Part shown: piece after piece, positions 35,258 through 50,822 of the stretch
Layout of the letters: each line of letters begins with the position of its first letter
Numbering within the stretch: position 1 is the first letter of the stretch
Assembly: GCA_010094025.1 (NCBI GenBank)
Contig: ML991783.1
Span: 372,001-436,000, forward strand
From: Viridothelium virens
Lineage: Eukaryota > Ascomycota > Dothideomycetes > Trypetheliales > Trypetheliaceae
Length of the DNA: 64,000 bases
Direction: 5' to 3'
Program-made: the position numbers and the translations under genes
Notes under the pieces: model-generated
What the model was told of the DNA's origin: nothing
Database searches by the model: none
The model's input: only the letters and a program-made list of their open reading frames with translations

Positions 35258-36223
35258 CTACTCTCCCTCTATCTTCTCCCCACAACTTCCGCCCTGCCAC
35301 TCCATCAGTCTTCGCAAGAATCTCGTCCCTCCTCCTCCCTCCCACTCTCCGACCTTCTCGCACCACTTTCCCCACGTCGACGCTCCCGTAACAAAGTTCA
35401 CTCCAACACACCAGTCTTCCTGCTCGCACTTATCAATGCATTCATATACGTCCTTGACCACGATCTCCGTCTCCTGCACCTTCCCCAAACGCACGGTATC
35501 AGCGCGCACCCGCCACACCGTGCCACTGGCCGAGGTGTAATTGACAGTGCGGTCGTGGCCATGCGCGAGGTATGTGTTCGTGTGGACGGAGAGAGAGTTT
35601 GGAGAGAACCAATCAGGCTGACGGTAATGATTGATGATGGAGACGAGGCTAGTGAAAAGCGTGTGGAATAAGGCTGCAAGCAGCATGCCAAGGAGGACGA
35701 GGACAATGAATCTAGTGAGTCCGAAGAGGATGCCTGAATACTGGGACTCGTCTTTCGCACGCTTACGGCTCTCGTTTGCTTTGGATTCAGGAGCTTCAGT
35801 GGGTGTTGTTGGGCACTGGCTTGTGTCAGCGTTCGGCGGTTTCGCTGTCGATGCATCGCTTGGTGAAGATGACGGCTTGAGTTGAGGAATATCGTTAGTC
35901 TGCGGACGCCATGGCCAGGATTCAAGCGCGCTCAACGATGATGTCGGACTCGGTGCCTGAGACCTTTGACGCTCAAGATTAGAAATCCACAAGGGGGTGC
36001 CGTACCCGTAGTCGTCAGATAAATGCTCGCTATCTGGTAATGGCAGGTAACTAGGGCTCTCCCCGCCATGGTTTGCGAGTGAACTTCGGGTTGAAGGTGA
36101 ATATCGGTCGGCTGAGTTTGCACGCTTCAGTGGTACTGACAAGGGATGAGAACTTTCTTTGGCCATTTCGCTGGATGCAAGTAAAGGCTTCGACGACAAA
36201 AGGTGATCGTAGACAGAAAACAC
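35258..36223 (-). CDS. Single-pass membrane protein with Cys-rich luminal region
   Basis: A single exon of 321 residues from ATG 36223, or 302 from ATG 36166. The N-terminal 160 residues are Ser/Pro-rich and probably cytosolic. One hydrophobic segment lies at about residues 166-195 (FGLTRFIVLVLLGMLLAALF at its start). After it, about 125 residues with Cys at 262, 266, 272, 288 and 314 include VYECIDKCEQEDWCVGVNF. The spacing (C-x3-C-x5-C) resembles PAN/Apple-type or similar small disulfide domains, but the match is too short to assign. No signal peptide is present, so a type II topology is likely. I do not recognise a named family. Confidence 0.6.
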   Translation of the reverse strand: MFSVYDHLLSSKPLLASSEMAKESSHPLSVPLKRANSADRYSPSTRSSLANHGGESPSYLPLPDSEHLSDDYGYGTPLWISNLERQRSQAPSPTSSLSALESWPWRPQTNDIPQLKPSSSPSDASTAKPPNADTSQCPTTPTEAPESKANESRKRAKDESQYSGILFGLTRFIVLVLLGMLLAALFHTLFTSLVSIINHYRQPDWFSPNSLSVHTNTYLAHGHDRTVNYTSASGTVWRVRADTVRLGKVQETEIVVKDVYECIDKCEQEDWCVGVNFVTGASTWGKWCEKVGEWEGGGGTRFLRRLMEWQGGSCGEKIEGE

Positions 36224-36462: not shown

Positions 36463-37602
36463 TCAGCCAGAGCACGGGTGGAATTCCGCACAATCCGGGT
36501 AGCCAAACTTCCCACGATTTCGGTTGTGATTCTCAGGCTTGAATCTAGGATTCAATTTCGACTGTAATGCAGTCGTATTATGGGGTCGTACACGACGGGC
36601 TGGAGCCATCCCAGCCAGGTCTGCTTCAGACCGTTTCTTGTGCCCTCCTCCTGGCGGAAGCCCTGTCAGATCTTCAGCTACCCAGTAGAACCTTTTTTCT
36701 ATGCTTGAATCCGTGATGGTACCACCTTCGTCCATGTCTCGAGCCAGGAGCGGCATTTCCGACTTGACTCCTGGATGGCTTTGTCTTAAACCTTCGCTCG
36801 AATCTGAAATGGTACCGGCTTGATCTTGGTCCTGAGTCAGCACTTTTGAGTACAGCCCCCTTTTTCCTGTGCTTGAATCCTTGATGGTGCCGCCCTGATC
36901 TTGGTCTCGAACTAGCACGTGTGGCGACATTTCCCTTTTCTTTATGCCCAGACCTGTGCTGGAACCTGTGCTCGAATCGGAAATGGTACCACCTTGGTCC
37001 TGATCCCGAGCCAGCACGTGTGGCGACGCCTCCCTTTTTCCTATGCCCGAACCTGAGCCCGAGCCTGTGCTCGAACCTGTGCTCGAATCGGAAATGGTAC
37101 CACCTTGGTCCTGATCCCGAGCCAGCACGTGTGGCGACGGACCCCTTTTTGCTATGCCCGAACCTGAGCCCGAACCTGTGCTCGAATCAGAAATGGTGCC
37201 GCCTTGATCCCGATCCCGAGCCAGCACCCTCTGCAACTCCTCCTTGCTGTCTACTACACTAACATTCTTGAACACGGGTGTCGCCGCTTCGGCTCCCGAA
37301 TTGCCTCTGTGTGACACCTCCTCGGAGATAGCAGATGCAAGACTACGAAACGCTATGAGGACAAACACAATGAGAAGAAGAAGAGCCACGAGGGCGCAAA
37401 CATATTGGGCATGCCGATGACGGTCTTGGTGACGGCGACGATACGCCTCGGCCACTGATCGATCTGAAAGTGTGGATTGGGACGGCGAACCAAGGTCGGC
37501 GGCGGCTGCTTCCTCGGCGGGCAGGGCGCTTTCGATGTCGCAATTAGACTTCTTGGTAGAGGATCCGATGTCGTAGGTAGACGACATTTTGTGAGAGTTC
37601 AA
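36463..37602 (-). CDS. Membrane-anchored repeat protein with six repeats and Kex2 sites
   Basis: A single exon of 379 residues from ATG 37602, or 374 from ATG 37587. The N-terminal 65 residues are charged and cytosolic. A signal anchor lies at about 66-86 (YVCALVALLLLIVFVLIAF). The luminal part then carries six copies of a motif close to VLARDQDQGGTISDSSTG, at about residues 126, 158, 196, 228, 255 and 285. Dibasic sites follow or separate them: KR at 152-153, 188-189, 247-248 and 303-304, KKR at 221-223 and 322-324. Kexin cleavage in the Golgi should release several near-identical acidic peptides. The C-terminus is basic and ends YPDCAEFHPCSG with two Cys. I know no named family. It belongs by design to fungal Kex2-processed repeat proteins. 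A MITE sits 140 bp upstream of the start. Confidence 0.7.
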   Translation of the reverse strand: MNSHKMSSTYDIGSSTKKSNCDIESALPAEEAAAADLGSPSQSTLSDRSVAEAYRRRHQDRHRHAQYVCALVALLLLIVFVLIAFRSLASAISEEVSHRGNSGAEAATPVFKNVSVVDSKEELQRVLARDRDQGGTISDSSTGSGSGSGIAKRGPSPHVLARDQDQGGTISDSSTGSSTGSGSGSGIGKREASPHVLARDQDQGGTISDSSTGSSTGLGIKKREMSPHVLVRDQDQGGTIKDSSTGKRGLYSKVLTQDQDQAGTISDSSEGLRQSHPGVKSEMPLLARDMDEGGTITDSSIEKRFYWVAEDLTGLPPGGGHKKRSEADLAGMAPARRVRPHNTTALQSKLNPRFKPENHNRNRGKFGYPDCAEFHPCSG

Positions 37603-37741
37603 GATGTTTTTTTTTGAAAAGGCGGATCAAAGATGGGAGGTGCTGCTTATATAACGGAGAATAGAATAGAATTCTGCCTGTGGGAAAGCCGCTTAGGTCC
37701 TCACTGACGTGGCCATTAGTTAAAGATTAATCAGGTACTTA
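37603..37741. promoter_or_regulatory. Proximal promoter of the Kex2-repeat gene
   Basis: 140 bp between the start codon at 37602 (minus) and the MITE. Read on the minus strand it holds a TTATATAAGC element (at about 37646-37655), a good TATA box about 45 bp upstream of the first ATG. The MITE therefore borders the core promoter. Confidence 0.5.
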
Positions 37742-37922
37742 CCTTACCGCGGCTGGGGGGTTCCTCAACTGGTAATTAATACAATGTAATTTCGACTTTA
37801 CTGTTATGACATTGTTGGCCTGTGTTAACGCCGCCTTAACATGGGCCAACATGGTCATAACAGTTAAACTGAGGTAACATTGTATTAATTACTGGATGAG
37901 GAACCCCCCAGCCGCGGTAAGG
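37742..37922. mobile_element. Palindromic MITE, copy 1 (181 bp)
   Basis: The ends are perfect terminal inverted repeats starting CCTTACCGCGGCTGGGG, and most of the 181 bp folds back on itself (about 85 bp arms with an inner mismatched part). TA dinucleotides flank both ends (37740-37741 and 37923-37924), as in Tc1/mariner-type target-site duplications. No coding capacity. Two related copies occur at 59026 and 61680. Confidence 0.88.
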
Positions 37923-37924
37923 TA

Positions 37925-38430
37925 GGTAGTACAAGATTGGTAGACTAATACGAGACAGGTTGGGGGGGGAGTGGATGAGTCGTCCAAGTCAACAGAAAAA
38001 CTATCCGAAAAAAGGTCTGAATGTGGATTTTGATACCTTGGTATACCATCGATCCGCCGTGATATATGGAAAATGCGTCCAGTATGACATGAAAATGCGC
38101 CCAAGGCGTCAAACAAGAAAACGAAGAGTGATTCGACAAGAATACAGGATGTCGAGAAAATGTCCAATAGAGATGGTGTTCCAATCCCACCTGATTCCTC
38201 GAGTACGAAGCAAGCTTGAGCGGCGGAGCTCACAGTATGCAGCAGAATTCCTCCCTTCAGAGTTCCATTTTTCGGCCTCAACTCACGTAATCCAGCCAAA
38301 TGCTGCCTGCTCGTAAATCTTCATATCCACTTTTTATTAGCTCCTCCCAAGTCCTCATTTTTAGAAACTCTCCATAGCCCCACCCACCTCACGGAGTCCA
38401 CGAAATTCACCGTCCGTCCATCCAATACCC
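37925..38430. other. Intergenic
   Basis: About 500 bp between the MITE and the 3' end of the next minus-strand gene. Two overlapping open frames, one per strand, have no features that support a gene. Confidence 0.35.

Positions 38431-40684: not shown

Positions 40685-40685
<1 letters not shown>
39484..40685. other. Intergenic between two minus-strand genes
   Basis: 1.2 kb without a convincing gene. Open frames on both strands overlap and lack domains. It holds the promoter and leader of the disordered-protein gene and the 3' flank of the phosphofructokinase gene. Confidence 0.4.

Positions 40686-40733
<48 letters not shown>
40686..40733. repeat. (CAT)16 microsatellite
   Basis: Sixteen uninterrupted CAT units. 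It lies 20 bp beyond the phosphofructokinase stop codon, inside the 3' flank. Read on the minus strand it is (ATG)16, just after the stop. Confidence 0.95.
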
Positions 40734-49471: not shown

Positions 49472-50822
49472 TTAATCCTTCCCCATTATGGCAGCTGCAG
49501 GGGATTTGTGCTTAGAGAACAGATTTTTAAGCACAGGATCTCGGGCAGCATGAGTCCTCAGCTCTTCCTCGAATTCCTCAGGGCTATGCTCATCCTGCCT
49601 TTGCCACAACTGTCCTATTTGTACGCTGCCTTCTACAGTAAGGATATCGAGAGCTGCCTTTTTTTTCCCACGCGCCAGTGCAAGCGTGTAGATCCAGGGT
49701 TTGGCATCTTCATATAGTTCTCCGGTCTTCTGCCAGAGGGTTCCGACGAAATCATAGGTCAAACAGAGCCGTTCTAGCCGCGTACAGTCCACTAAGGCCC
49801 TGAAGAGTGCATTCATCCTCTCGTCACGGCCAGGGAAAATTTGAAGTTGGCGGAGGTAAATCCGGAGGTCTTGTAGTCTGCCAATGAATGCGTGAAAATG
49901 ATAGATTTTCGGGAAGAACCAGCGGGTATTTCCGAGCACAATAGGCATAATTTCGCGTCTGATTTCTCGTGAAACTTGCGTAATCGCAAGGTGCTCGTTG
50001 GAAAAGAACTCCTCACGAGTCATGTCGATGAGGTCGTCAAACTTGTCATTATAGTCAAAGTCGTCCTTATCTTCAGCCTCGTCCTCGTCCTCATCCTCAT
50101 CGTCGTCCTCTTCCTCACCCTCATCCTTGTCCTCGCCCTCTCCCTCGTCCTCGCCGTCGTCCTCGCTGTTGTCCCCATCTAGTTTATAATAGGAAACATT
50201 GATGCGGGGAAACAGATGGTCGTAAACCAGATTGCGGACCTCTGGAGGTAAACAAGTGAATGGGAAGGGTTGGCCTTGACGGATGATGACTGATGGAAGA
50301 CCATTTGCAGATCCAACTTCGTGTTCCCTCTAAGAAAAAAAGGTTAGCAATAATCACGAGCAATATGTCTTGTGGAGCACCTACGAGTTCAGCTTGAAAT
50401 ATCTCATCATTTTCGACTGTAGTGCCCAGAACATCGAGTGCCCATTTGCCTCGTTTTTCGTTGTACTGGAGTGCTTGTTAGCCATCATTAGTCAACTTGA
50501 GAATGGTAGTGCACTTACAGAGGAGACGTGAACCGAAAGCGGTTGGGTTTCTTTCGGGGTGATCATGGCGAGATACGATTTGTAAGAACAAATGACACCA
50601 GTGGGGCGAGATGAGGATTGTTGACGCTGGTCAAGGTGACCAATTTCTGTGACCTCTGCACGTTCTTGGGGTCCAGCAACAAATTCCACCTATATCAAAA
50701 CAGAGAGGAGCTTCGTAGGATTATTGAATAAGAACGGGTAGAGTTTTTCCTGAGCCTTCTATCTCAGCATTATAAGACCCGAACCCGAGCGAAATCACAA
50801 GCTCCGTGTGCTTTGCCGACAT
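49472..50822 (-). CDS. F-box-like / 2EXR-type protein with a long acidic insert
   Basis: Four exons on the minus strand, 50822-50736, 50689-50519, 50465-50385 and 50329-49472, give about 398 residues. The first intron uses a non-standard GTTCTT donor, so exon 1 (MSAKHTELVISLGFGSY) is less certain. The F-box-like helix is FTCLPPEVRNLVYDHLF. It is followed by an unusual run of about 45 residues that are nearly all Asp/Glu with a few Gly and Lys, and then by the domain beginning ITQVSREIRREIMPIVLGN, typical of this ascomycete family. The acidic run is encoded by an interrupted GAC/GAG repeat. Function is unknown. The next gene, about 540 bp away, is a relative with the same layout, so a local duplication is possible. 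Confidence 0.6.

Follow-up and report, generated by a model that had tools for sequence, protein, structure and literature searches.

The window analyzed here is a 64,000-nucleotide stretch of the Viridothelium virens genome (assembly GCA_010094025.1, contig ML991783.1, positions 372,001 to 436,000 of the forward strand), and all coordinates below are positions within it. Its minus strand carries a gene of 374 codons plus a stop, free of intron candidates matching the scanned consensus, whose product combines one hydrophobic segment with a series of short repeats and dibasic sites. The likely start is the ATG at 37587, the sequence context of which, CACAAAATGTCG, is a good one for fungi; the end coordinate 37602 given in an earlier sequence-only reading belongs to a TTG lying 5' of this ATG, which the list of open reading frames had used, and should be replaced. 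The features of the locus, in the direction of transcription, are as follows.

37646..37653, minus strand: TATA box, TATATAAG, 66 bp upstream of the precursor ATG
36463..37587, minus strand: the repeat-precursor gene
37405..37587, minus strand: N-terminal segment, aa 1-61, presumed cytosolic, terminating in the basic stretch RRRHQDRHRHAQ
37348..37404, minus strand: hydrophobic, signal-anchor-like segment, aa 62-80, by hydropathy
37180..37215, minus strand: motif core R1, aa 125-136, 5' of the first KR; would remain on a membrane stub
37144..37149, minus strand: KR after R1 (AAA AGG), followed by GP
37081..37116, minus strand: motif core R2, aa 158-169
37033..37038, minus strand: KR after R2 (AAA AGG), followed by EA, a Ste13-type dipeptide
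36970..37005, minus strand: motif core R3, aa 195-206, identical in core DNA to R2
36934..36939, minus strand: KR after R3 (AAA AGG), reading KKR
36871..36906, minus strand: motif core R4, aa 228-239, with strong synonymous divergence from R2
36859..36864, minus strand: KR after R4 (AAA AGG)
36796..36831, minus strand: motif core R5, aa 253-264; the site after it reads GLR instead of the KR of other copies
36703..36738, minus strand: motif core R6, aa 284-295
36691..36696, minus strand: KR after R6 (AAA AGG)
36631..36636, minus strand: KKR in the C-terminal nonrepeat part (AAA CGG)
36592..36597, minus strand: RR, a weaker kexin candidate

The sole intron candidate of the scanned consensus, at 37704-37747, lies upstream of the gene. 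A fold-back element (37736-37928) is made up of two 96-nt arms, 83% complementary and 1 nt apart, and recurs elsewhere in the genome in at least 40 near-full-length places at 86-94% identity and in one partial copy; the count is a lower bound, 40 of 220 candidates having been scored. The element stops 82 bp short of the TATA box, on its upstream side, so it may affect expression of the precursor gene.

The segment at aa 62-80 is the only strongly hydrophobic one in the protein, its best 19-residue Kyte-Doolittle mean being 3.2, compared with 0.23 for the next best elsewhere. The 15 residues that precede it include five lysines or arginines, the 15 that follow it just one, and because of this asymmetry the positive-inside rule would place the repeats in the lumen. 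Hydropathy and flanking charge together suggest that aa 62-80 is an N-in signal anchor, in line with the N-terminal signal anchor proposed earlier.

After the anchor, the protein contains six copies of the motif D-x-D-x-[GA]-G-T-I-x-D-S-S, with cores starting at aa 125, 158, 195, 228, 253, and 284 and with 8 of the 12 core positions invariant. All six copies of the sequence-only reading were recovered in the precursor frame; its term “near-identical” suits R1 to R3 but not R4, R5, and R6, which differ from R2 at 1, 1, and 3 of 12 core residues, respectively. The 12-residue DxDxDG loops of EF-hands and dockerins carry a ligand at position 5 and an acidic residue at position 12. The motif resembles them in having D at positions 1 and 3, G at position 6, and I at position 8, but all six copies have G or A at position 5 and S at position 12. 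With these two positions wrong and no Pfam match to either family, we reject an EF-hand or dockerin identity.

The copies differ mainly at synonymous sites. Of the 36 core bases, 11 separate R2 from R4, and 9 of these 11 are at third positions; when an equal number of differences was drawn neutrally 20,000 times, no draw gave so few nonsynonymous changes. The draws, made for 6 of the 15 copy pairs, gave moderate corresponding counts of 50 for R2-R5, 255 for R1-R2, 326 for R5-R6, and 442 for R4-R6, each in 20,000, and a nonsignificant 1,681 for R2-R6. Over the 12-codon core, pS was 0.655 and pN was 0.091 over all 15 pairs, the identical pair R2-R3 included. Over a 20-codon stretch, pN/pS was 0.36 in the gene frame and 0.41, 0.86, 1.30, 1.37, and 1.83 in the other five, the value of 0.41 coming from an antisense frame that is thus nearly as low as the gene frame. 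We read the copies as old duplicates in which the peptide has been kept, with R2 and R3 recently duplicated or converted, since their core DNA is identical. Because selection has kept the motif peptide, D-x-D-x-G-G-T-I-x-D-S-S is probably the active part of the precursor.

KR dipeptides occur at aa 147, 184, 217, 242, 298, and 318, and RR occurs at aa 331. KR is present in four of the five gaps between motifs and again after R6, so the earlier placement of KR or KKR between copies stands for those four gaps and fails for that between R5 and R6, where GLR (GGT TTA AGA) takes the place of the GKR (GGA AAA AGG) found at the R4 site. Because R5 lacks a KR, strict peptide units would not be required everywhere. 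KR nevertheless follows the diverged copies R4 and R6 and not just the similar copies R1 to R3, which counts in favor of a precursor. From aa 85 on, the protein has six KR compared with a mean of 1.17 in shuffled sequences, and 4 of 10,000 shuffles equalled it, a test that is generous because R1 to R3 look like duplicates and their KRs are not independent. The window has 148 stop-to-stop open reading frames of 100 aa or more, and two of these gave KR/RR/KK fragments with a common 6-mer, namely, the precursor gene and one that reads the same repeat DNA in another frame. KR is encoded by AAA AGG after five of the six motifs (36691-37149, minus strand), while synonymous sites in the cores vary greatly; this uniformity beside variable cores is a puzzle.

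Predicted cuts after each KR or RR from aa 85 on give fragments of 64, 37, 33, 25, 56, 20, 13, and 42 residues. The 64-residue fragment holds R1, ends at the first KR, and would still be joined to the anchor, and the 56-residue fragment holds R5 and R6 together. Full cutting would thus produce three single-motif peptides, one double-motif peptide, one tethered motif, and three nonrepeat C-terminal pieces. The set of six similar peptides described in the sequence-only reading is therefore overstated, the C-terminal pieces being unrelated to the repeats, and its size range of about 25-37 residues applies to three of the products (37, 33, and 25) but not to those of 56, 20, 13, and 42 residues or to the membrane stub. 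Three fragments begin with G-P, E-A, and E-M, each followed by a common S-P-H, and the first two of these starts fit Ste13-type dipeptidyl trimming. The label “acidic” is only weakly borne out by the single-motif peptides, which after trimming would have three or four D/E to one or two K/R; the R5-R6 piece would have 10 to 4.

The genome encodes candidate enzymes for such processing. It contains one P_proprotein match over the cut-off, within an 864-aa open reading frame on contig C12 whose best match among PDB sequences is named kexin (E = 2.4e-168), and one DPPIV_N match, an identification at the domain level. Within the window, Pfam matches over the cut-off among 27 open reading frames or exons, the precursor included, comprised phosphofructokinase, Vps35, a cyclin, an amidoligase, a gamma-glutamyl cyclotransferase, an alpha/beta hydrolase, and a 2EXR protein, with a GH43 match below its cut-off; no peptide-modification cluster was seen among them. 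The next gene downstream (35258-36169, minus strand) encodes a protein with a long N terminus and, as judged by eye, one apparent hydrophobic segment; its C-terminal part weakly matches a PAN domain (E = 0.005, below the cut-off), and no second copy was found in the genome at an E value of ≤0.1. A functional link between this gene and the precursor is possible. The window also has simple-sequence arrays of CCTCGT-type repeats at 50061-50165 and of about 16 TCA units at 40685-40733.

Searches for relatives returned nothing convincing, in keeping with the earlier statement that no homolog could be recognized. The whole protein matched no Pfam family at an E value of ≤1, and when it was searched as five pieces at E ≤10, three gave no match and two gave one weak match each, below the cut-off: Serglycin (E = 0.3) on a Ser-Gly spacer and DUF1218 (E = 0.069) on the anchor region. 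Among PDB sequences, one weak match was found at E ≤10 (TMH4C4, E = 0.075), covering aa 38-96 around the anchor. Apart from the precursor itself, its own genome gave a sole match of 13.2 bits (E = 0.45). A short pattern occurred in 35 stretches of prokaryotic contigs and in 2 viral contigs, with none confirmed in searches able to detect only close relatives, and the precursor had no match in plasmids. Because these collections were not built for fungal genomes, the missing matches are no evidence that the gene is an orphan. Four letter strings of the motif were absent from the open-licence literature searched, and no type II or otherwise anchored kexin repeat precursor was recognized in the titles and abstract openings of that literature.

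The architecture closest to that of the precursor is that of the fungal Kex2-processed repeat proteins (KEPs), which the reports, in the portions drawn on here and below, define by two features, a signal peptide and the presence of repeats with Kex2 sites (PMC7329392, PMC6339444). The precursor shares with them short repeats spaced by KR, presumed lumenal exposure, a kexin gene in the genome, and KR-EA and KR-GP starts that fit Ste13-type trimming. Measured against the published definitions, it has internal, nearly identical repeats (six copies), Kex2 sites in all the intermotif gaps but one, and eight fragments from aa 85 on, compared with the four or more fragments on cutting at KR/RR that the pipeline of Le Marquer (2019) demands (PMC6339444). 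It departs from them in having, by hydropathy and charge, no N-terminal ER signal peptide, its first hydrophobic segment starting at aa 62, and in having one anchor-like segment where nonmembrane proteins are called for; it also has one motif 5' of the first KR, a double-motif unit, and a long nonrepeat N terminus. Because it fails the signal-peptide criterion by hydropathy, we stop short of classing it as a strict KEP, although it appears to work like one. Umemura (2020) filtered with SignalP 4.1 (PMC7329392), Le Marquer applied SignalP and discarded TMHMM positives (PMC6339444), and a study of Agaricomycetes left out proteins without a signal sequence (PMC9769878); because each required a signal peptide, all three would probably miss the precursor.

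Two further systems offer partial parallels. Like ascomycete alpha-pheromone precursors of the MF-alpha type, the precursor has repeats with KR, and KR-EA once, but it lacks a canonical signal peptide, its predicted single-motif fragments are longer (25-37 aa), and no pheromone-like core was recognized by eye. The cuticle collagens of Caenorhabditis elegans are likewise of the type II membrane class, with furin/kexin relatives as their proteases, and, in the text drawn on, share with the precursor a cytosolic N terminus, an anchor, an extracellular repetitive part, and a proprotein-convertase site (PMC11304992). Their site lies near the anchor and would yield one structural chain, whereas the several sites of the precursor would chop its repeats apart; the likeness is one of analogy, not homology.

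On balance, we think it probable that the gene encodes a KEP-like peptide precursor that enters the secretory pathway by an uncleaved type II signal anchor. In this model, the repeat part would face the lumen, and kexin would cut at the KR sites in the late Golgi, freeing the one-motif peptides with R2, R3, and R4 and the two-motif peptide R5-R6 and leaving R1 on the membrane stub. The C-terminal KR of the freed peptides would next be lost to Kex1-type trimming, which would bring the single-motif ones to 23-35 residues, and the X-P or X-A starts (KR-GP, KR-EA) would be lost to Ste13/DPP-IV-type trimming. Consistent with such a route, lumenal domains of integral membrane proteins are among the targets of Kex2 (PMC2515848), and KEP-derived peptides have been detected in supernatants, with XA/XP trimming reported (PMC9769878). 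The original reading of the locus as a kexin-cut repeat precursor agrees with the anatomy, with selection on the motif, and with the presence of a kexin gene, apart from the number of like peptides. We infer the topology, cleavage, trimming, release, and role; as to role, we consider a secreted ligand, acting on the fungus itself, a partner, or a host, more likely than a wall component. A bolder and rather doubtful version holds that the gene represents a class of type II-anchored fungal precursors missed by KEP surveys, with one copy of the ligand tethered and the others released. If so, the cell would both carry and secrete the same selected D-x-D-x-G-G-T-I-x-D-S-S signal.

The most durable alternative, in our view still unlikely, is a membrane-tethered and largely uncut surface or wall-contact protein, such as a sensor stalk or an adhesin-like protein, in which the KR sites are unused or partly used. 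Ser/Gly/Thr-rich spacers, N-glycosylation sequons at aa 108 and 337, and the absence of KR after R5 would suit such a protein, but KR follows the other five motifs, diverged R4 and R6 among them, and exceeds the number in shuffles. An ordinary secreted KEP, in which signal peptidase cuts at an ASA-type site after the hydrophobic segment and the anchor is a long signal sequence, is also improbable. KEPs are common, averaging 5.25 per ascomycete strain (PMC7329392). The small residues SLASA after the hydrophobic stretch would also allow such a cut, but 61 residues precede the stretch, which runs for about 19 residues and is followed by R. A lead of this length and a stretch of this kind followed by R are atypical of signal peptides.

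A dikaritin-type RiPP precursor, whose released peptides would be cyclised or oxidised by UstYa-type enzymes, is very hard to credit. The KEP-like repeats, a genome-wide total of 49 UstYa matches (E ≤ 0.001, each exon being counted separately), and the aromatic residues in the R5 unit and a C-terminal piece (GLYSK, FYWVAEDL) speak for it, but no UstYa match at that threshold lies in the window and the contig's only one is about 160 kb from the precursor, the Pfam matches among the 27 window frames scanned are housekeeping or unrelated, and the repeated core lacks Tyr, Phe, and Trp. We reject a RiPP cluster at this locus on context, no UstYa match lying beside the precursor; the earlier reading had likewise found no UstYa (DUF3328) gene in the window and doubted a RiPP role on that account. 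A young, nonfunctional repeat frame kept by DNA slippage would suit the lack of relatives in the sets searched and the identical R2 and R3 core DNA, but is similarly remote given that the old copies differ far more at synonymous than at nonsynonymous sites and that the gene has a 374-codon frame, a TATA box, and a good ATG context.

A precursor-like gene under selection on a repeated peptide is well supported, and the predicted anchor is what sets it apart from known KEP-type precursors. If the precursor is processed, signal-anchored fungal peptide precursors would be a blind spot of the KEP surveys, because these, in the portions drawn on, kept proteins with a signal peptide, and one of them additionally discarded membrane proteins; scanning the available proteomes anew could then open this blind spot at once, and the selected motif provides a concrete peptide to look for.
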